Part shown: positions 26,622 to 34,364 of the stretch, in pieces
How positions within the stretch are numbered: position 1 is the first letter of the stretch
How the letters are laid out: each line of letters begins with the position of its first letter
Assembly: GCA_032027085.1 (NCBI GenBank)
Contig: JAVSMS010000001.1
Coordinates: 1,752,332-1,816,331 of the forward strand
From: Pseudorhodoplanes sp.
GTDB taxonomy: Bacteria; Pseudomonadota; Alphaproteobacteria; Rhizobiales; Xanthobacteraceae
Length of the DNA stretch: 64,000 nucleotides
Direction of reading: 5' to 3'
Program-made: the position numbers and the translations under genes
Notes under the pieces: generated by a model
What the model was told of the DNA's origin: nothing
Seen by the model: the letters and a program-made list of their open reading frames with translations, nothing else
Database searches by the model: none

Positions 26622-28829
26622 ATGATACCCCTTCATGCTCCCGCATCGCGAGGGCAATGGCATGCGCATATGCGGCGACGGCCACGACCGTTGCTTCTCC
26701 TTGCCGGCGGCGCCTGCCTGGCATCCGTACTGCTTCTCTATACGCTTGCCAAGCAAGCCGGTTCTGCAACGCATCTCTATGCGATCGGCATATCCGCATT
26801 GCTCGCTGCGGCCGGCCTGTTCATCGCGTTTCTGATCCATCGGGTACAGACATTGACGGCAGCCGTCGATGCGCTGGAACAGCGTGCCGACGCATTATCT
26901 GACCGGAACTGGGAGTTGCGCGAAGCCGAGGAGCGCGCGCGCAGCTTTCTCGAAGCGCCAGGCGATCTCATCGTGCGCCGCACCCGCGACAGCAGGATCA
27001 CCTATGCCAATGATGCCTATTGTACGCTGATGGGTCAGCGCGCTGAAAGTCTTGTCGGGACCGGCGCCGTTCCGGACATTCTTGAACAGGGTGACAGCGC
27101 CTTGCTGCCCGACGGCAGCCGCGTGCACGACCAGAAAATTGCAAGCCGGGACGGGCCGCGCTGGATCGCCTGGCGCGATGTTGCGGTCCGCACCGACGAA
27201 AACCACAGCGAGATCCAGAGTGTCGGCCGCGACGTGACCGATCGCGTCAATGCCGAACAGGCGTTGGCGGATGCGCGCGACGAAGCGGAAGCCGCCAATC
27301 GCGCCAAATCGCGATTCCTGGCCATGGTGAGCCACGAGGTGCGCACGCCATTGAACGGCATTCTCGGCATGGCCGACCTTCTTCTCGATACGCCGCTGAC
27401 GCCGGAACAGAAAACCTATGCCAAGGCGGTGAAAACCTCCGGCGACACACTGCTGTCGCTGATCGAGGAGATTCTCGATTTTTCCAAGATCGAGTCCGGC
27501 CGGCTTGACATCGAGGCGCGGCCCTTCGCGCTCGGCGCCATGATCGAGGACATGGTGGAATTGCTGGCGCCACGCGCGCAGGCGAAAGGCATCGAGATCG
27601 CCGCTTATGTCGATGAGCGGCTGCCCGAACGGATCGCCGGCGACAGCACGCGTCTGCGGCAGGTGCTGATCAATCTTGCCGGCAATGCCATCAAGTTCAC
27701 CGATACCGGCGGAGTCGCCATCGTCGTCGAACCCGGCATCTGGCCCGGCGACATCAATTTCAAGGTGCGAGACACCGGCATTGGAATCGCGCCGGAAGAA
27801 CAGTCGCGCATCTTCAGGGAGTTCGAGCAAGGCGATGGCGCCGCGAATAATGCGAGCGGCACCGGTCTTGGGCTTGCCATCTCCCAGCAGATCGTCGAGC
27901 GCATGGGCGGCAGGATTTCGGTCGAGAGCCTGCCGGGCGCCGGCGCATTGTTCGAATTCACGGTCAATCTTGCTGCGGCAGACGACACCCCGCCGGCTTT
28001 TGCCGCGCCCGACCTGACCGGCCATGCCGTGCTGATCGTCGCGCCGGCGATGATCGAAGCGGCGCTGATCGCCCGCCGGCTGACGCGCTGGGGCGCAACC
28101 GCGGCGGTGGTGCCGAACGAGGCCGCGGCCGCAGCACTGGTGCCCGAGCGCAATTGGCAGACATTGCTGGCGGACCACGCCTTGGGCCGCGACGCACTCG
28201 ACCGGCTGCTGCAAATGTCGCGCTCTATCGAGCGCCGCCTGATCCTGATGACTCCGGCGGAACGCGGCGAACTGGATGCGATGAGACAGGCCGGCTTTAC
28301 CGGCTATCTCGTGAAACCCGTGCGCGCCGTTTCACTGGCGGCCCGCTTGCAATCTCACGGCGATGACTTTGCGCGCGTTGCCGACGTCCCGGCACCATCC
28401 GCGGAAGCCAAGCCCGTGCAGCGCGGACTCTCGGTGCTTGTCGCCGAAGACAATGAGATCAACGCCCTGCTCACCCGCGCGCTGCTGTCGAAGCTGCAGC
28501 ACAGCCCGACGCTCACGACCGACGGCGCCGAGACCGTGCAGGGCTTCCTGTCGGCACGCGCCGCCGGAACGCCTTTCGACCTGATTCTGATGGACGTGCG
28601 CATGGCCGGCATCGACGGACTGGAGGCGGCGCGCCGCATCCGCGCCGCCGAGGCCGCGCACGGCTGGCCTCGCACGCCGATTGTCGCGCTCACCGCCAAT
28701 GCCTTGCCTGAGCATCGCGACGCCTGCCTAGCCGCCGGAATGGACGGCTTCCTCACCAAGCCACTGGACCGCGAACGCCTGGAAACGGCCTTGGCGCGCT
28801 ATAGAACCGTGCCTCCGATCGCCGCCTGA
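26622..28829 (+). CDS. hybrid sensor histidine kinase with two receiver domains
   Basis: 735 residues. Two membrane helices (about 23-45 and 53-75), a coiled coil, a PAS-like region, then a HisKA domain with SHEVRTPLNGILGMADLLL and an HATPase domain with NLAGNAIKF, DTGIGIAPEEQ and GTGLGLAIS. Two receiver modules follow. The first lacks the acidic pair (VLIVAPAMIE) although an Asp (LLADHA) and Lys (GYLVKPV) remain, so it is a pseudo-receiver. The second is complete (VLVAEDNEIN, LILMDVRMAG, GFLTKPLD). No HPt domain is present, so a separate phosphotransfer protein would be needed. A later ATG at 26670 could be the start. Divergent from the ECF gene. Confidence 0.93.
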   Translation: MIPLHAPASRGQWHAHMRRRPRPLLLLAGGACLASVLLLYTLAKQAGSATHLYAIGISALLAAAGLFIAFLIHRVQTLTAAVDALEQRADALSDRNWELREAEERARSFLEAPGDLIVRRTRDSRITYANDAYCTLMGQRAESLVGTGAVPDILEQGDSALLPDGSRVHDQKIASRDGPRWIAWRDVAVRTDENHSEIQSVGRDVTDRVNAEQALADARDEAEAANRAKSRFLAMVSHEVRTPLNGILGMADLLLDTPLTPEQKTYAKAVKTSGDTLLSLIEEILDFSKIESGRLDIEARPFALGAMIEDMVELLAPRAQAKGIEIAAYVDERLPERIAGDSTRLRQVLINLAGNAIKFTDTGGVAIVVEPGIWPGDINFKVRDTGIGIAPEEQSRIFREFEQGDGAANNASGTGLGLAISQQIVERMGGRISVESLPGAGALFEFTVNLAAADDTPPAFAAPDLTGHAVLIVAPAMIEAALIARRLTRWGATAAVVPNEAAAAALVPERNWQTLLADHALGRDALDRLLQMSRSIERRLILMTPAERGELDAMRQAGFTGYLVKPVRAVSLAARLQSHGDDFARVADVPAPSAEAKPVQRGLSVLVAEDNEINALLTRALLSKLQHSPTLTTDGAETVQGFLSARAAGTPFDLILMDVRMAGIDGLEAARRIRAAEAAHGWPRTPIVALTANALPEHRDACLAAGMDGFLTKPLDRERLETALARYRTVPPIAA

Positions 28830-28849
28830 CGGCCAAGCATCGGCGCTCG

Positions 28850-28882
28850 CTCCGCGTGTGACGTCGATCTCAGGATGACGAA
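28850..28882. repeat. repeat half-element (GATCTCAGGATGACG)
   Basis: CTCGCTCCGCGTGTGACGTCGATCTCAGGATGACGAA matches one end of the repeat at 52870-53003, which ends CGCATCTCAGGATGACAG. Only this half is visible between the histidine kinase gene and coaA. Confidence 0.45.
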
Positions 28883-29836
28883 TCAGAGTTTCCGCAGCGC
28901 CACTTCCTCGACGGCGTGGCTTTCGGCTTTCTTCAGGATCAAATCGGCACGCTGACGCGTCGGCAGGATATTCTCGCGCAGATTGATCAGGTTGATACGC
29001 TCCCAGATGCCGGTTGCGGTCTCCACCGCTTCAGTGTCCGACAAGGTCGAATAGCGATGGAAATAGGACAGCGGATCGCGGAACGCGGTCATCCGCAGCG
29101 CCAGAAAACGGTCGACATACCAGCGTTTCAGCACTTCCTCGTCGGCGTCGAGATAGACCGAGAAATCGAAAAAGTCCGACACGAAGGGAATCGCCTTGCC
29201 GTCCTTTGGCGGGCGCCCGGTCTGCAGCACGTTCAGTCCTTCGACGATGAGGATGTCGGGCCGGTCGATCTCAATCCATTCATGCGGCACAACGTCATAG
29301 ACGATGTGTGAATAGATCGGTGCGCGCATCGGCGTCTTGCCGGCCTTGATGCCGGACAGAAACTTGAGCAGCTCCGGCAGATCATAGCTTTCCGGAAAAC
29401 CCTTCTTCTCCATCAGGTCTTCCTGCTGCAGCACCGCGTTGGGATAGAGAAAACCGTCGGTGGTGAGGAGATCGACCTTCGGCGTGTTGGGCCAGCGTGC
29501 GAGCAGGGCCTGCAGCACGCGGGCGGTGGTCGACTTGCCGACAGCGACCGAGCCGGCAACGCCGATGACATACGGCACCTTGGCATCCTCGGTGCGCAGG
29601 AATTTCTGCTGCACGCGGAACAGCCGCTGCGATTCGGCGACATACATCGAGAGAAGACGCGACAACGGCAGATAGATTTCCTCCACCTCCGCCATGTCGA
29701 GACGATCGTGCATGGAGCGCAAGGTGGCGACTTCCGACGGACGCAAGGTCATCGGCGTGTCTTCGCGCAAGCTTGCCCATTCCTGACGCGAGAAAGTCTT
29801 GTAAGGCGAGACTTCAGGCTCGATACGCTTTTCCAT
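28883..29836 (-). CDS. coaA: type I pantothenate kinase
   Basis: 317 residues. [23 protein letters not shown] carries the P-loop, [14 protein letters not shown] the metal/substrate Asp, and [14 protein letters not shown] with [24 protein letters not shown] are type I CoaA signatures. It phosphorylates pantothenate, the first and usually regulated step of coenzyme A synthesis. It starts 12 bases downstream of the hisE stop on the same strand, the standard rhizobial hisE-coaA pair, and is therefore probably co-transcribed with it. Confidence 0.97.
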
Positions 29837-29848
29837 GCGGGGCTTCTT

Positions 29849-30181
29849 TCAGTCCGGCTTGCGGGAGGCTTTTTCCTGCAGCCCGGATTGCGACATGCGC
29901 TGTTCCAGTTCCGCCTCGACTTCGGCGAGCTTCACGCCGCGCGCCTGCAGCACCACCAGAAGATGGTAAAGAAGGTCGGCTGTCTCGGCGATCAACTTGC
30001 TGCGATCCTCCGCAACGGCGGCGATGACGGTTTCCGCAGCTTCCTCGCCGAGTTTCTTGGCGCAATGCGCCACGCCCTTGTCCAGCAGCTTGCGGGTGTA
30101 GGAGACATCCGCGCTGGCGCCGGCGCGCTCCTGCACGCGGGCTTCGAGATCGGAGAGCGTCGGGGTCGTCTTGGTCGTCAC
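29849..30181 (-). CDS. hisE: phosphoribosyl-ATP pyrophosphatase
   Basis: 110 residues from the GTG at 30181 (normal length about 107). [12 protein letters not shown] opens the all-alpha MazG-like fold, and [14 protein letters not shown] with [14 protein letters not shown] provide the acidic residues that bind magnesium. It hydrolyses phosphoribosyl-ATP to phosphoribosyl-AMP in histidine synthesis. Longer starts at 30220 (ATG) or 30250 are possible but add residues unlike the family. In many relatives the rest of the his operon lies directly upstream; here the upstream region is a structured element and then a LysE-type exporter gene on the other strand. Confidence 0.9.
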
Positions 30182-30324
30182 GATTGGAGTTCCAGTCCTT
30201 GGCCGGCGGCCTTGTAGCATGATCGAAAAGCTCGCGCCGCACTCATTCACCCCTCCACGGGAGGATAAGGACGCGCGTCATCGCCCGTATTGTTTGAGGC
30301 GCCGGGATCGCCTTCCTGCTCTTT

Positions 30325-30713
30325 CCCTCACTTTCAATAAGTGAGGGGGATGGCGCGCCGGGCGGCGCAACCTTCCTTTTTCAGTGTGCGATCCCGTTTC
30401 CGGAACCGCCGCGTCGTCCGACGCGCCATCGCGGCGTTTTCACTACGATGCCGGGCCGCGCTTTCGTGGGTGATCCAGTGTGGGCCCACGGCAGCCAGCT
30501 CCTGGCGGAGGCCCATCAGTGGCCTCGGGCGGAGCCCCGGCATAGCCCGAGTGCGAGCTTGCGAGGCTCGCCCGCGGGCGCCGCACCGGCCGAGGCCCGG
30601 AATTACCGGGCGCCGTCCAGAAAGGTCCTGCGGCGCATCTCCGCCGCAGCCCTTCCTTCGTCCCGCCTCCATGACGCCTCATGAGAGCGCCCCTCGGCGG
30701 ACGAGGTGATATG
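30325..30713 (-). ncRNA. candidate structured non-coding RNA or repetitive element
   Basis: No convincing gene lies between hisE and the LysE-type gene. Read on the minus strand, a consensus promoter (30714-30742) is followed by about 390 bases with many strong hairpins. Pairs given in plus-strand positions: 30628-30635 with 30642-30649 (eight bp, perfect), 30595-30600 with 30606-30611, 30553-30558 with 30666... not used; 30553-30558 pairs with 30566-30571, 30524-30530 with 30545-30551, 30481-30486 with 30510-30515 enclosing 30494-30498 with 30502-30506, and a final nine-bp stem 30325-30333 with 30339-30347. Two overlapping frames stay open (30443-30682 and 30334-30672), but both are Arg/Gly/Pro-rich and low in hydrophobics, as expected for GC-rich non-coding DNA. 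It could be an RNA, a long leader for hisE-coaA or a dispersed element. Confidence 0.45.
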
Positions 30714-30742
30714 CTTATAGTCCTATCTAGGAATATTGTCAA
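30714..30742 (-). promoter_or_regulatory. consensus sigma-70 promoter with palindrome in the spacer
   Basis: On the minus strand TTGACA (30737-30742) and TATAAG (30714-30719) are 17 bases apart, a nearly perfect housekeeping promoter. The spacer contains the inverted repeat TCCTA-N2-TAGGA (30721-30732), a position where a repressor would block polymerase. It reads into the structured element and towards hisE-coaA. Confidence 0.72.
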
Positions 30743-30903
30743 GGGTTTTGTTTGGCCTCGTGTCCCGGGCGAGCGAAACAAAACACGGGCCCCAAAAGCG
30801 AAGCATGGCCGCGCAGGTGATTGTGGCCCGGCTGGCGGGCTGGGCGTCGCGGGATAGGAGCCTGTGTTTGCCACCACCCAAACGACCCTGCTATCTCCCC
30901 CGC

Positions 30904-31545
30904 ATGCCCTTCCTGCCCGCGCCCGACATCCTCCTCGCCTTCACCGCCGCCTCGGTGCTGCTGATCCTCACGCCGGGGCCGGACATGACCTTCTTTCTCG
31001 GGCAGACGCTGACCGCGGGACGCGCGCGCGGTTTCGCCGCCTTGTTCGGCGCCATGACCGGCCTGTGCGTGCATTCAATGCTCGCGGCGTTCGGTCTGTC
31101 GGCGTTGCTGGTGGCGTCGGCGGAGGCCTTCGCGATTCTGAAAATCGTCGGCGTCGCCTATCTGCTCTGGCTGGCGCTGCAGGCGATCCGCCAAGGCACA
31201 GCGCTGACGCTCGCGCAAGGCGCTGCGAAACCGCAATCACTGCGGCGCGTCTTCCTGACCGGCGCCGGCATCAACCTGCTCAATCCGAAGATCGTGATGT
31301 TCTTCCTGACCTTCCTGCCGCAATTCGTCTCGGCGTCGGATCCGCAAGCGAGTGGCACGCTCTTCTTCCTGGGACTGTATTTCATCGTGCTGTGCCTTCC
31401 GATCTGCATCCCCATGATCCTGATGGCCAACCGCTTCACGGGCGCGCTGCGGCGCTCGCCGCGCATCATGCGCGCCTTCGACTGGCTGTTCGCCGGATTG
31501 ATGGGTGCGTTCGCGGTGCGGCTGCTGCTGGCGCGCAGTTCGTAG
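30904..31545 (+). CDS. LysE/RhtB-family amino-acid exporter
   Basis: 213 residues with about six transmembrane helices. The N-terminal PGPDMTFFLGQTLTAGRARG is the RhtB/LysE signature, and GAGINLLNPKIVMFFLTFLPQF is the second conserved segment. Members export amino acids such as threonine, homoserine or lysine across the inner membrane; the substrate is not predictable. An upstream extension to 30736 is rejected because the membrane signature starts at the ATG at 30904. The TAG stop is part of the palindromic repeat that begins at 31541, so the repeat inserted at or very close to the original gene end. Confidence 0.92.
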   Translation: MPFLPAPDILLAFTAASVLLILTPGPDMTFFLGQTLTAGRARGFAALFGAMTGLCVHSMLAAFGLSALLVASAEAFAILKIVGVAYLLWLALQAIRQGTALTLAQGAAKPQSLRRVFLTGAGINLLNPKIVMFFLTFLPQFVSASDPQASGTLFFLGLYFIVLCLPICIPMILMANRFTGALRRSPRIMRAFDWLFAGLMGAFAVRLLLARSS

Positions 31546-31631
31546 GGTGGGTTAGGCGCGCAAGCGCCGTAACCCGCCATAGCTGGGTGCGGCCGGTGGG
31601 TTACGCGCCTTCGGCGCTAACCCACCCTACG
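31541..31631. repeat. GTAGGGTGGGTTA-type palindromic repeat
   Basis: The left end GTAGGGTGGGTTAGGCGC (31542-31559) and right end GGCGCTAACCCACCCTAC are almost perfect inverted copies. The inside holds a second inverted set (GTAACCCGCC / GGTGGGTTAC). GTAGGGTGGGTTA is a common bacterial intergenic repeat motif. It supplies the stop codon of the upstream exporter gene. Confidence 0.8.
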
Positions 31632-31640
31632 TGCTGGCAT

Positions 31641-31708
31641 TTGTAGCCCGCATGGAGTGAAACGGAATGCGGGGGACGGCACCCGGATTACGCTTCGCTT
31701 CTACGCTA
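31641..31708. repeat. GTAGCCCGCATGGAG-type repeat fragment
   Basis: GTAGCCCGCATGGAGTGAAACGG, AATGCGGGGGACGGC, then CACCCGGATTACGCTTCGCTTC. GCCCGCAT pairs with ATGCGGG. It has one end of a longer palindrome but lacks the matching right end, so it is a fragment inserted between two other repeats. Confidence 0.55.
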
Positions 31709-31713
31709 GTTGC

Positions 31714-31790
31714 TGTCATTGCCGGACCTGATCCGGCAATCCATTCGTTTTTTGAAAAGATGGATGCGCGGATCAAGTCCGCGCATGACG
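31714..31790. repeat. TGTCATTGCCGG...GCGCATGACGA repeat, copy 1
   Basis: TTGCCGGACCTGATCCGGCAA is one hairpin and GCGCGGATCAAGTCCGCGC another; outer ends GTCATTGC and GCATGACGA are inverted. A second copy of the same design lies at 46544-46632. The spacer between the two hairpins differs between the copies. Confidence 0.75.
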
Positions 31791-31795
31791 AAACC

Positions 31796-32248
31796 TCACA
31801 TATCCCCGACCGGCGCCTTCCACTTTCCGGCGCTGCGGCCGGCGATCAGCCAATAGACAAAGCCGCCGATAATGCCGGAGGCGGCGACCAACTGCAGCCC
31901 GAAGGCGACCGGCGGCATGTCGGTCGTCTCCTCGATCTGCACCGACATGTTGGTCCCGAACCAGGCGATGAGCCCAATCGCGGCGCCGCCGAGCGCGTAA
32001 TAGAAGATCGATCGGATGTCGAAGGCTTCGGCAATTGCGATCAGCGCCAGCGCGGGGAGGAAGGCGTAAGCCCCGACCATGCTGGTGGTGAAGAAGCCGA
32101 CGAAGAAGAAGGCGAAATGCTCGACCGGATCGGTGGTAACCGTCACCCAGTCGGGCACCATGACGCCGATCGCGAGCGCAAGACCCGCGGCAAGGATGGA
32201 GATCAGCAGGGCGAAGAGAATGACAATGAGGCGGAAGAAAAGGGACAT
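31796..32248 (-). CDS. small integral membrane protein, four helices
   Basis: 150 residues with four hydrophobic helices (about 4-28, 45-70, 80-97 and 115-137) and little else. There is an acidic Glu/His pair (DPVEHFAFFFVGF) in the second helix, which might be functional. I do not recognise the family; similar four-helix hypothetical proteins occur in Rhizobiales. Its stop is six bases from the preceding repeat, and its start is followed upstream by another repeat, so it sits alone between repeat clusters. Confidence 0.72.
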   Translation of the reverse strand: MSLFFRLIVILFALLISILAAGLALAIGVMVPDWVTVTTDPVEHFAFFFVGFFTTSMVGAYAFLPALALIAIAEAFDIRSIFYYALGGAAIGLIAWFGTNMSVQIEETTDMPPVAFGLQLVAASGIIGGFVYWLIAGRSAGKWKAPVGDM

Positions 32249-32260
32249 GTTTTCAAACCA

Positions 32261-32304
32261 GTCGTTCCGGCCGAGCCAAAGCGAGAGTCGGAACCCATAA
32301 TCAC
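32261..32304. repeat. 44-bp direct repeat upstream/downstream of rlmN, copy 1
   Basis: Begins GTCGTTCCGGCCGAGC and ends CGGAACCCATAATCAC. It matches 33684-33727 at 42 of 44 positions in the same orientation, about 1.4 kb away. GTTCCGGC and GCGAGAGTCGGAAC are internally complementary. Confidence 0.85.
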
Positions 32305-32401
32305 AGAGATTCGAACTTCGGCAAGGCCGGTGTTTCCGGTTTTAGCCGGCTTGTGAAATGCAAAATCCGATCTCGAGTGAAGCTCGGGGGCGACCGGTAA
32401 A

Positions 32402-33619
32402 TCAGTCCGTCATCGCCATGGCGCGCAGCGTCATGCGTTCGCGTGCCGAGAGCTTTTCGGTAGCGCTCTTCAATTGCCCGCAGGCGGCAAGGATGTCGCG
32501 CCCGCGCGGGGTGCGCACCGGCGAGGCATAGCCGGCGTTGAAAACTACTTCGGAAAATTTCTCGATCTGCTCCCAGTCCGAGCACTCATACTTCGTACCC
32601 GGCCAGGGATTGAAGGGAATGAGATTGATCTTGGCCGGAATGCCTTTCAGCAAGCGCACCAGCTCCTTCGCGTCGGCGAGCGAGTCGTTGACACCTTTCA
32701 GCATCACGTATTCGAAGGTGATGCGGCGCGCATTCGACACGCCGGGATAGTTGCGGCAGGCGTCGAGCAATTCGGCGATCGGATACTTGCGGTTGAGCGG
32801 CACCAGCTCGTTGCGCAGATCGTCGCGCACCGCATGCAGCGAGATCGCCAGCATGCAGCCGATCTCCTCGCCGGTGCGCGCGATGTTCGGCACAACGCCG
32901 GAGGTGGAGAGCGTGATACGCCGGCGCGACAGCGACAGGCCTTCGCCGTCGCTCGCGACCAGCAGCGCATCGCGCACCGCCTCGAAATTGTAGAGCGGCT
33001 CGCCCATGCCCATCATCACGATGTTGGAGACGAAACGCTCGCCCTCGGTCGGCAGGCCGGGACCCTTCGCGTGCTCCTGCCCGAGAAAATCGCCGAGCCG
33101 GTCGCGCGCCACCATGATCTGGCCGACGATCTCGCCGGGCGTGAGATTGCGCACGAGGCGTTGCGTGCCAGTGTGGCAGAAGGAGCAATTCAGCGTGCAG
33201 CCGACCTGGCTGGAAACGCAGAGCGTGCCGCGATCGTTCTCCGGAATGTAGACGCATTCGACTTCGTGCGGGCGCTCACCCTGTGTGCCGGACGGCAGAC
33301 GCAGCAGCCATTTGCGGGTGCCGTCGTTCGACACCTGCTCGGCGACGATCTCCGGACGCTCGAGCGTGAAATGATTTGCGAGCTCGGCGCGCAGGTCTTT
33401 CGACACCGACGTCATGTCGGTAAAGTCGCGAACGCCGCGTACATAGAGCCAGTGCCAGATCTGCTGCGCGCGCATCTTCTGCGCGCGCTCAGGCACGCCG
33501 ATGCCGCCGAGCATCGCGGCAAGCTCGGCGCGCGAGGCGCCGACAAGCGAGGGCTTGTCCGGGGCGACGTATCGCTCCAGCGGGGTTTTTTCGAGCAGAG
33601 TCGTGGTTTCGGCGGTCAT
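32402..33619 (-). CDS. rlmN: dual-specificity RNA methyltransferase RlmN
   Basis: 405 residues of the radical-SAM superfamily that methylates C2 of A2503 in 23S rRNA and A37 of some tRNAs. Cys141, Cys145 and Cys148 in [13 protein letters not shown] bind the 4Fe-4S cluster. [27 protein letters not shown] and [12 protein letters not shown] are family signatures, and [13 protein letters not shown] ends the protein. A second conserved Cys required for methyl transfer should be near the C-terminus (AACGQLK), and is present. Single gene, flanked by near-identical 44-bp direct repeats. Confidence 0.96.
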
Positions 33620-33683
33620 TGATGTCGTCAGGAATTGGCGCGGCTCTTAGCACAAATGGGGTTCGCCGCGCCAAATATCACGG

Positions 33684-33804
33684 GTCGTTCCGGCCGAGCG
33701 AAAGCGAGAGCCGGAACCCATAATCACCGGACGTGCGATTACGGAAATACTGGGATTATGGGTCCCGGCTCGCGCGCTGCTTCGCAGCGCTTGGCCGGGA
33801 CGAC
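33684..33804. repeat. GTCGTTCCGGCC repeat, larger copy 2
   Basis: The first 44 bases repeat 32261-32304 with two mismatches. The remainder adds the other arm: GGATTATGGGTCCCGGCTCG and CGCTGCTTCGCAGCGCTTGGCCGGGACGACG, which pair with the left part. This is the fuller version of the palindrome. Confidence 0.8.
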
Positions 33805-33815
33805 GCCAATGTGAA

Positions 33816-34364
33816 TTACCGGCATTCCTGCGCGGTGCGGTCGAGCGCCTGGGAAATGCCCTTCAGCGAGAAGGTATCGGTCGTCTTGGTGCCGCGGGTG
33901 GATTCGCCCTTGACGGTGACGTCGGAGCCCTTGCGCAGAGCCTCGACCAGCCGCGCCTCTTCCGCCGCGTTCTTCACCCAGGCGCCGTCATTCTGCGTGT
34001 ACATGGCAAAGGTGGCGCCGCCGACCTCGACGCTGGCGTCGGCGTTCGGCTTCAGCGGATAGCCGATGATGACCGACACCTCTTCCTTCACCTTCTCGGC
34101 CGGGCGCGTGGACACGAACAGCCAAGCCGGATCGCGCGGGCGATTCGGCGGATTGGTGGCGGACGAGGTGGGCTTGGCGAGCGCGAAGCACACCTTCTTG
34201 CCGCCGGGCGAAGCCGTATAGGCGCCCCAGTCGCCATACTGGCCGAGCAACGTCGCGCCCGACGTGGGCGAGGCCTGGCCATAAGCCATGGTCGCCGCCA
34301 CCGAGACGGCGGTCATCGTCCCACCAAACCCACCCAGTACCGGAATTTTCCGCAAGAATGTCAT
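33816..34364 (-). CDS. invasion-associated locus B (IalB) family protein
   Basis: 182 residues with an N-terminal hydrophobic segment (about 8-29) that is probably a signal peptide. The mature part reads YGDWGAYTASPGGKKVCFALAKP, the opening motif of the IalB family, followed by SVIIGYPLKPNADASVEVGGATFAMYT. IalB proteins are common in Rhizobiales and Bartonella (where the name comes from erythrocyte invasion), but in free-living species the role is unknown. The divergent quinone oxidoreductase gene begins 145 bases away. Confidence 0.9.
   Translation of the reverse strand: MTFLRKIPVLGGFGGTMTAVSVAATMAYGQASPTSGATLLGQYGDWGAYTASPGGKKVCFALAKPTSSATNPPNRPRDPAWLFVSTRPAEKVKEEVSVIIGYPLKPNADASVEVGGATFAMYTQNDGAWVKNAAEEARLVEALRKGSDVTVKGESTRGTKTTDTFSLKGISQALDRTAQECR

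Follow-up and report, generated by a model that had tools for sequence, protein, structure and literature searches.

Among the described systems closest to the locus reported here are the large non-coding RNAs OLE, ROOL and GOLLD, which it resembles in size, in coding for no protein and in its elaborate covarying fold (PMC12286853, in the part available). The same part of that account describes OLE L9.3 and GOLLD L21a as symmetric kissing loops whose palindromes covary, and argues for intermolecular loop pairing as we do below (PMC12286853). An unrelated system that works alike is the HIV-1 dimerisation initiation site, where the apical loop of a hairpin carries a palindrome of six bases (PMC7357161, available text). 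With respect to dispersed repeats, the available accounts present Br-REP1 and Br-REP2 of Bradyrhizobium as palindromes of ~20–40 nt in 3′-UTRs and intergenic regions (PMC5082802), SmelA075 and SmelA099 as multicopy, trans-encoded sRNAs of Rhizobiales made of strings of similar hairpins (PMC3927594), and multiple copies in inconsistent orientation as the sign of a transposable system (PMC11109978).

Here, we follow up a first-pass annotation of a 64,000-nt stretch of the Pseudorhodoplanes sp. genome (the window), which had proposed a repressor-controlled structured RNA, a long leader of hisE-coaA or a dispersed element between hisE and a LysE-type gene. The first and last of these turned out to hold together—structured RNA and dispersed element at once—whereas the leader fell away as a function of the family. 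Very probably, the locus is a large structured non-coding RNA with a gene of its own, and about twenty such copies lie scattered through the genome. It does not encode a protein, nor is it a leader conserved with hisE.

Unlike OLE, ROOL and GOLLD, the element has no Rfam match to these classes, exists as some twenty dispersed copies and carries its own promoter with a palindromic spacer, a six-base palindrome near its 5′ end and, in other copies, a boxA-like tail; its oligomer is a prediction from sequence. It shares the six-base loop palindrome with the HIV-1 site, from which it differs as a bacterial chromosomal RNA whose palindrome-flanking loop bases are not the conserved purines described for that site and which has no genome packaging to serve. 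Br-REP1 and Br-REP2 are, like the element, dispersed structured repeats of related bacteria, and are set apart by their description, which in the part available has no promoter-headed long RNA (PMC5082802); SmelA075 and SmelA099 likewise have several copies per genome and are set apart by description, again as far as the available text goes (PMC3927594). Mobile/repeat sequence candidate (MRSC) motifs are multicopy, orientation-independent and structured, as the element is (PMC11109978, in part), while the element has no transposase inside, possesses a promoter and has some flanks in common between species. No catalogued RNA class matches it, and its predicted way of working is that of the large oligomeric RNAs.

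The element, its copies and their distribution

The copy in the window and its surroundings comprise the following features.

30270..30742, minus strand: dispersed RNA-gene element copy (promoter plus RNA body), both ends common to other copies
30737..30742, minus strand: −35 box TTGACA, read from the sequence
30721..30732, minus strand: spacer palindrome TCCTA-GA-TAGGA, candidate operator
30714..30719, minus strand: −10 box TATAAG, read from the sequence
30707, minus strand: predicted transcription start, placed by promoter spacing (~+35 from the −35 box)
30699..30706, minus strand: 5′ strand of stem P1 (helix 1; 98.5% of cells paired, both-side changes in 5/6 pairs)
30673..30691, minus strand: hairpin GGCGC-9 nt-GCGTC with palindromic loop TCATGA (30684–30679), a predicted kissing loop
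30655..30664, minus strand: 3′ strand of P1, from the covariation alignment of the 5′ domain
30350..30654, minus strand: middle structured domain, group A type (RNAalifold on 21 copies of the whole RNA, not the domain alone)
30325..30347, minus strand: hairpin CCCTCAC-TTATTGAAA-GTGAGGG, from the single-sequence fold
30284..30313, minus strand: 3′ H-type pseudoknot AGGCG-AT-CCCG-G-CGCCT-CAAACAATA-CGGG, detected in the window copy
30270..30282, minus strand: 3′ end GATGACGCGCGTC, lacking the boxA-like tail that other copies have
29849..30181, minus strand: hisE (NF001613, phosphoribosyl-ATP diphosphatase), downstream and codirectional, outside the element
28883..29836, minus strand: coaA (TIGR00554, type I pantothenate kinase), outside the element
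30904..31545, plus strand: LysE-type gene (PF01810, E 2.6e-32), divergent upstream neighbour, outside the element

The 3′ boundary originally drawn at 30325 was too short: the repeat reaches ~30270, and 30325–30270 contains the conserved pseudoknot. Closest to the window copy is L002 (G000:C1:2250486-2250959), with 98.1% identity across 475 nt. Identity among a number of close copies starts at +35 to +37, in agreement with the predicted transcription start. Immediately beyond the 3′ end, at 30247–30270 in the window and in the 3′ flanks of L014, L219, L221 and L235, a palindrome of the type CCCTCCCC...GGGGAGGG adjoins the copy. A further palindromic stretch lies past the LysE gene (31545–31627); it matches naRNA4 below threshold (E 0.21).

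BLASTN against the element's own genome, a single contig of 4.97 Mb, listed 11 group A places, namely the query locus and ten long matches at 79–98% identity, one of them half-length; together with DNA-level relatives in other genomes, this bore out the suspicion of a dispersed element. L002–L004 are 95–98% identical to the window copy over nearly its full length, their shared part ending near TTGACA on one side and near GCGCGTC on the other (~7 nt short in L004). A second group, B (L012–L015, with L237 as a fifth, more diverged member), has the promoter and 3′ end in common with this group A but a different middle; in L015 an insertion has cut off the promoter. R1, a covariance model built from 56 copies of 12 genomes and spanning the initial 92 positions, found 21 places in the genome—revealing a third group, C—and one convincing match in the window.

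Within the same bacterial family, R1 matched 163 of 248 genomes at E 1e-4, covering 36 of the 47 genera sampled, with up to at least 17 scored matches per genome (151/236 when the model's 12 source genomes are left aside). Across a sample of the class, matches came from 3/385 genomes: the element's own, one of the same family, and an assembly with 5% contamination, whose match is weak (E about 4e-6). These large searches used stricter filters, at which weak matches are lost. Among 41 near genomes probed with DNA queries, group A occurred in 16 and group B in 13. Among 80 coaA loci of named records, R1 found no copy in the 60 for which it gave results, and a group A profile run over all 80 matched one (L025). 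The window's own coaA is nearest, among named records, to Pseudorhodoplanes and Pseudolabrys assemblies, which would put the organism in or close to Xanthobacteraceae. Rfam 15 gave no match inside the element up to E 1 in window positions 27000–34000 and 12 copy loci; the matches beside L181, in L215, in L250 and at 31545–31627 all lie outside elements. Carriage by plasmids or phages was considered and rejected: 72,556 plasmid records and 50,697 phage records had no BLASTN match to the group A copy, the only query used, and of two pattern scans over viral contigs one was empty and the other gave a single match (L283) that by eye lies in coding sequence. A description of the family was not found in the open-access papers searched; an earlier account in subscription papers is possible.

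Promoter, fold and loop palindrome of the predicted RNA

The sigma-70-like arrangement noted earlier, TTGACA-N17-TATAAG on the minus strand with a palindrome in its spacer, is present at 30742–30714. A strict consensus scan of 29900–30900 does not list it because that scan requires T as the last −10 base. Both boxes at 16–18 spacing are found in 85 of 113 distinct copies compared with 2 of 2114 control positions in the flanks, a recurrence that partly reflects selection, as the copy-finding profiles include the promoter (46/67 copies chosen by BLAST/HMM and 39/46 chosen by R1 have both boxes). By the same test, 28/113 lack at least one box. Given these missing boxes, the promoter-biased search and the different upstream sequence of some copies, not every copy need be expressed. 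In L203, L204, L208 and L209 (G019), L215 (G001) and L216 (G006), GAAAAAAAGTTACGCACG or a AAAAAAACTTATCCCCG-like sequence replaces the TTGACA promoter, possibly representing another promoter type. L274 and L276 of group C lack TTGACA and have ~140 bp of upstream sequence in common, including the inverted repeat TTCACGAA...TTCGTGA.

Despite drift, the 52 spacers of 17 bases, drawn from several genera, have TTCCTA-N2-(TA)GGA in common, which makes a shared DNA-binding regulator at the spacer palindrome a reasonable guess. The exact TCCTANNTAGGA occurs in 12/113 copies and its TCCTA half in 59/113. All nine exact occurrences of ATTCCTANNTAGGANTAT in the element's own genome are at element promoters, one of which has been separated from its RNA body by an insertion of IS1595 type. 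In a group B copy (L015, G000:C1 ~446086; L259, 641–1570), a transposase gene of this type (PF12762) sits in the promoter/start region, with GACTATTCTC at both junctions.

The predicted RNA (30707–30270) has a folding energy of −240.6 kcal/mol, whereas 100 dinucleotide shuffles average −207.4 ± 6.0, with none as low (z −5.5). Its reverse strand scores z −4.7, so that the single-sequence fold alone is no proof of an RNA. Comparison between copies is more telling. In the 5′ domain, 98.9% of 616 cells (11 pairs, 56 copies) are standard pairs compared with 87.6% after shuffling, 89 cells are changed on both sides against a shuffled mean of 21, and the covariation score is 0.479; none of 500 shuffles matched pairing, both-side cells or score. 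The number of pairs with a both-side change, six versus 4.5 after shuffling, is unexceptional (reached by 67/500). Four or more standard pair types occur at 5/6 positions of P1, and pairing falls to 39–58% when the partner is shifted by 1–3 columns. Each of the three groups has a different middle domain, for which alignments were made inside A and inside B. RNAalifold gave z −15.2 for group A (21 copies) and z −8.8 for group B (20 copies), each against 40 column-shuffled alignments, with both-side changes in 61/142 pairs of A (shuffled mean 14.8, maximum 28) and 34/114 of B (shuffled maximum 23). The reverse strands of the alignments fold well too, albeit less so (A −295 versus −324; B −204 versus −249), and the choice of strand therefore also rests on the promoter and on an invariant G-U pair. 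A large conserved secondary structure with covariation, as expected of large ornate oligomeric RNAs, is thus what the alignments contain; selection on RNA structure is well supported by these comparisons and by the covarying pseudoknot described below, and the earlier reading of a structured RNA held up.

Enclosed by P1 is a hairpin, GGCG(C)-loop-(G)CGTC, whose G-U pair is invariant in 56/56 copies. Its loop, commonly of 9 nt (2+6+1), contained a six-base palindrome in 106 of 113 distinct copies by script, compared with 11% of shuffled loops. L281, counted among the 106, proved to be a false match, and L009, L211, L247 and L313, four of the seven loops missed by the script, do contain a palindrome; those without one are L238, L239, L306 and L281. 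The palindromes are TCATGA (56), TCGCGA (15), TCTAGA (12), TGATCA (12), TCCGGA (6), CTCGAG (3) and CTGCAG (1), counts that are not independent events as the copies are related; several were found in more than one genus. A second script, reading the two central bases in 108 loops, returned AT 68, GC 13, TA 12, CG 11 and non-self-complementary 4. Centres are thus self-complementary in 104/108 loops, in all four kinds, where one in four would be expected were they free. A self-complementary loop that covaries, as expected of homo-oligomeric RNAs, is hence present at the level of sequence, among copies that are related. Adjacent bases cannot pair within one hairpin, yet these stay complementary while changing, which argues for pairing between two molecules. 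Homodimerisation of the RNA through a symmetric six-base kissing loop is strongly suggested by this pattern.

A 3′ pseudoknot and a boxA-like tail

Near the 3′ end, an A-rich H-type pseudoknot was called in 60 of 113 copies compared with 2.4 expected from shuffles that preserved base composition only; about 8 of the 60 calls look spurious by eye. Its S1 reads, for instance, AGGCG/CGCCT, CGGCG/CGCCG, AGACGC/GCGTCT, CGACG/CGTCG or CAGGGC/GCCCTG, and S2, in the non-spurious calls, CCCG/CGGG, CCCC/GGGG, CCGG/CCGG or similar. By these variants, the predicted pseudoknot covaries. An alignment of the 3′ domain (A2) was dropped when its stem came out shifted, and the pseudoknot search was used instead.

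Many copies end in GGCTGTTTGANANNTGAATC (with ≤3 substitutions in 40/116 fetched and 38/113 distinct copies), a tail that the window copy is without. The exact GCTGTTTGANANNTGAATC occurs six times in the genome, five times beside copies and once in an rRNA leader. A survey of rrn leaders in ten genomes, of which seven yielded a 16S, placed GG[CT]TGTTTGACA 253–277 bp before the 16S start AGAGTTTGATC, the position expected of boxA, at 9/9 rrn loci of these 7, the element's own included: the tail of other copies is the same motif as in the host rrn leader. Judged by its rrn-leader position and its apparent likeness to the boxA sequence of E. coli, the motif is probably boxA, and a boxA function in tailed copies is plausible. 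The rRNA operon leader resembles the element in its order of promoter, structured leader and GG[CT]TGTTTGACA. In contrast to it, the element has a dissimilar body (BLASTN in its own genome hit no rrn-leader place) with no rRNA after it, and carries the motif at the 3′ end of its conserved part.

Genomic setting, alternative explanations and meaning

Copies are intergenic, with only 1/113 overlapping a predicted gene by >60 nt (gene calls came from a script based on codon usage, for which 37 genes of the window were the training set). Their neighbours read as ordinary chromosomal genes such as thrS, ettA, rpoH and ribF, eight proteins having been checked against NCBIfam, three of them the window's own. 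The aligned LysE–hisE blocks are about 750 bp apart here versus 211–247 bp in four congeners (G001–G004), and the element is absent from the same site in L017 and L019; the copy therefore arrived in the lineage of this genome. A precise empty site could not be placed, with the L017 and L019 flanks too diverged to locate the junction.

Of the alternatives, the one that survives best is a selfish mobile element of the mobile/repeat kind (Narunsky et al. 2024), whose structure would serve only its own spread; we regard it as a real possibility, if clearly the less probable one. Its many copies, the insertion in this lineage and contigs that end inside copies all fit, as does orientation: of the 99 copies for which genes were called on both sides, 50 have a codirectional and 49 a convergent gene downstream, and multicopy occurrence in inconsistent orientation is a sign of transposable systems (PMC11109978, in part). 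So does the lack, by eye, of a recurring partner gene among the 42 neighbour proteins of the 21 own-genome copies. Against it, the group A copies have no open frame in common, promoter hexamers are kept while spacers drift, and several copies have flanks in common between species (L012/L234, L194/L197, L228/L231 and L313/L322). Nor is there a target-site duplication in 112 copies (mean longest common word 4.11 versus 4.16 ± 0.09).

How copies relate to one another points to dispersal of whole units and exchange of parts between them. Among 51 pairs with ≥90% RNA identity (L015 and three duplicate fetches omitted), 24 keep the spacer (≥0.8) and 13 have spacer identity <0.55; upstream flanks are <0.7 alike in 22 of the 24. 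RNA-mediated copying was set aside, with 24/51 pairs keeping the spacer and promoter exchange by gene conversion as the simpler reading. In the flanks of several copies of G146 (L287–L293), further repeats of ~150–230 bp recur.

It seems quite unlikely that the element acts in cis on hisE-coaA, be it as a leader or as a spare promoter. It does run in the same direction, ends ~90 bp before hisE and is followed by no terminator-like minus-strand site before that gene (scan of 29900–30900). Moreover, tail-less copies more often precede a codirectional gene (39/64 versus 11/35 tailed) and tailed ones a convergent gene (24/35 versus 25/64; Fisher p 0.006), an association to which genus sampling may contribute. 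However, the LysE–hisE site lacks the element in G001–G004, L017 and L019, the neighbours of other copies are unrelated genes, and the family as a whole has no consistent position upstream of a codirectional gene. The long leader proposed in the first-pass annotation was accordingly rejected as the family's function; at the window site itself, read-through into hisE is possible.

A DNA-level repeat of MITE, REP or BIME type, with hairpins acting in DNA, is very unlikely. The copies are indeed dispersed, hairpin-rich and intergenic, with a reverse strand that is almost as well folded, and one group C copy (L275) has a divergent gene for a REP-associated tyrosine transposase 69 bp from its start. 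Speaking against such a repeat are compensatory changes that pass through G-U pairs, the G-U pair without exception in the loop hairpin, a promoter at one end, the missing target duplications and a covarying pseudoknot that is sensible only in a single strand; where a MITE has terminal inverted repeats, the shared 5′ and 3′ ends of the element look unrelated by eye. A short protein-coding gene has next to no chance and was ruled out: the open frames of 112 and 122 codons appear non-coding, as first thought, for the minus-strand frame (30672–30334) is broken by frame-shifting indels in 20/20 relatives of the 21-copy group A alignment (A3), in which substitutions spread evenly over codon positions (695/744/677 for that frame, 746/705/706 for the plus-strand one) and a conserved frame with codon-position bias is absent.

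As an autonomous RNA gene, the element would be transcribed from ~30707 by a housekeeping-type sigma factor, as the recurring boxes suggest, and a protein bound to the spacer palindrome may modulate this step. The transcript would fold into a closed 5′ domain (P1 and the palindromic-loop hairpin), a group-specific middle and a 3′ pseudoknot, an arrangement that covariation supports, and palindrome turnover strongly suggests that two molecules would then join by the kissing loop. The unit would spread to new intergenic sites, insertion having been traced for the window copy, while its RNA body would be homogenised between copies and promoters may be exchangeable. Conjecturally, the dimer might be a trans-acting protein scaffold or decoy, and the boxA-like tail of many copies would point to the NusB–S10 machinery.

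OLE has reportedly been proposed to sequester a ribosomal protein. In a bolder version, which we consider unlikely as it stands, the multicopy homodimeric RNA would mimic the rRNA leader through a strong promoter, a rigid fold and an exposed boxA. By capturing NusB–S10, or polymerase loaded with it, in trans, it would tune rRNA antitermination in a manner akin to that proposed for OLE, copies upstream of genes having lost boxA and become spare promoters.

The family of bacteria concerned includes well-studied nitrogen-fixing and photosynthetic genera, and 36 of the 47 genera sampled have this structured RNA of ~440 nt that is without an Rfam match. Its repeated copies break draft assemblies. 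The boxA-like tail would provide a concrete link to rRNA synthesis, and the palindromic loop constitutes strong comparative evidence for RNA homodimers, making it testable why bacteria build oligomers of RNA only.
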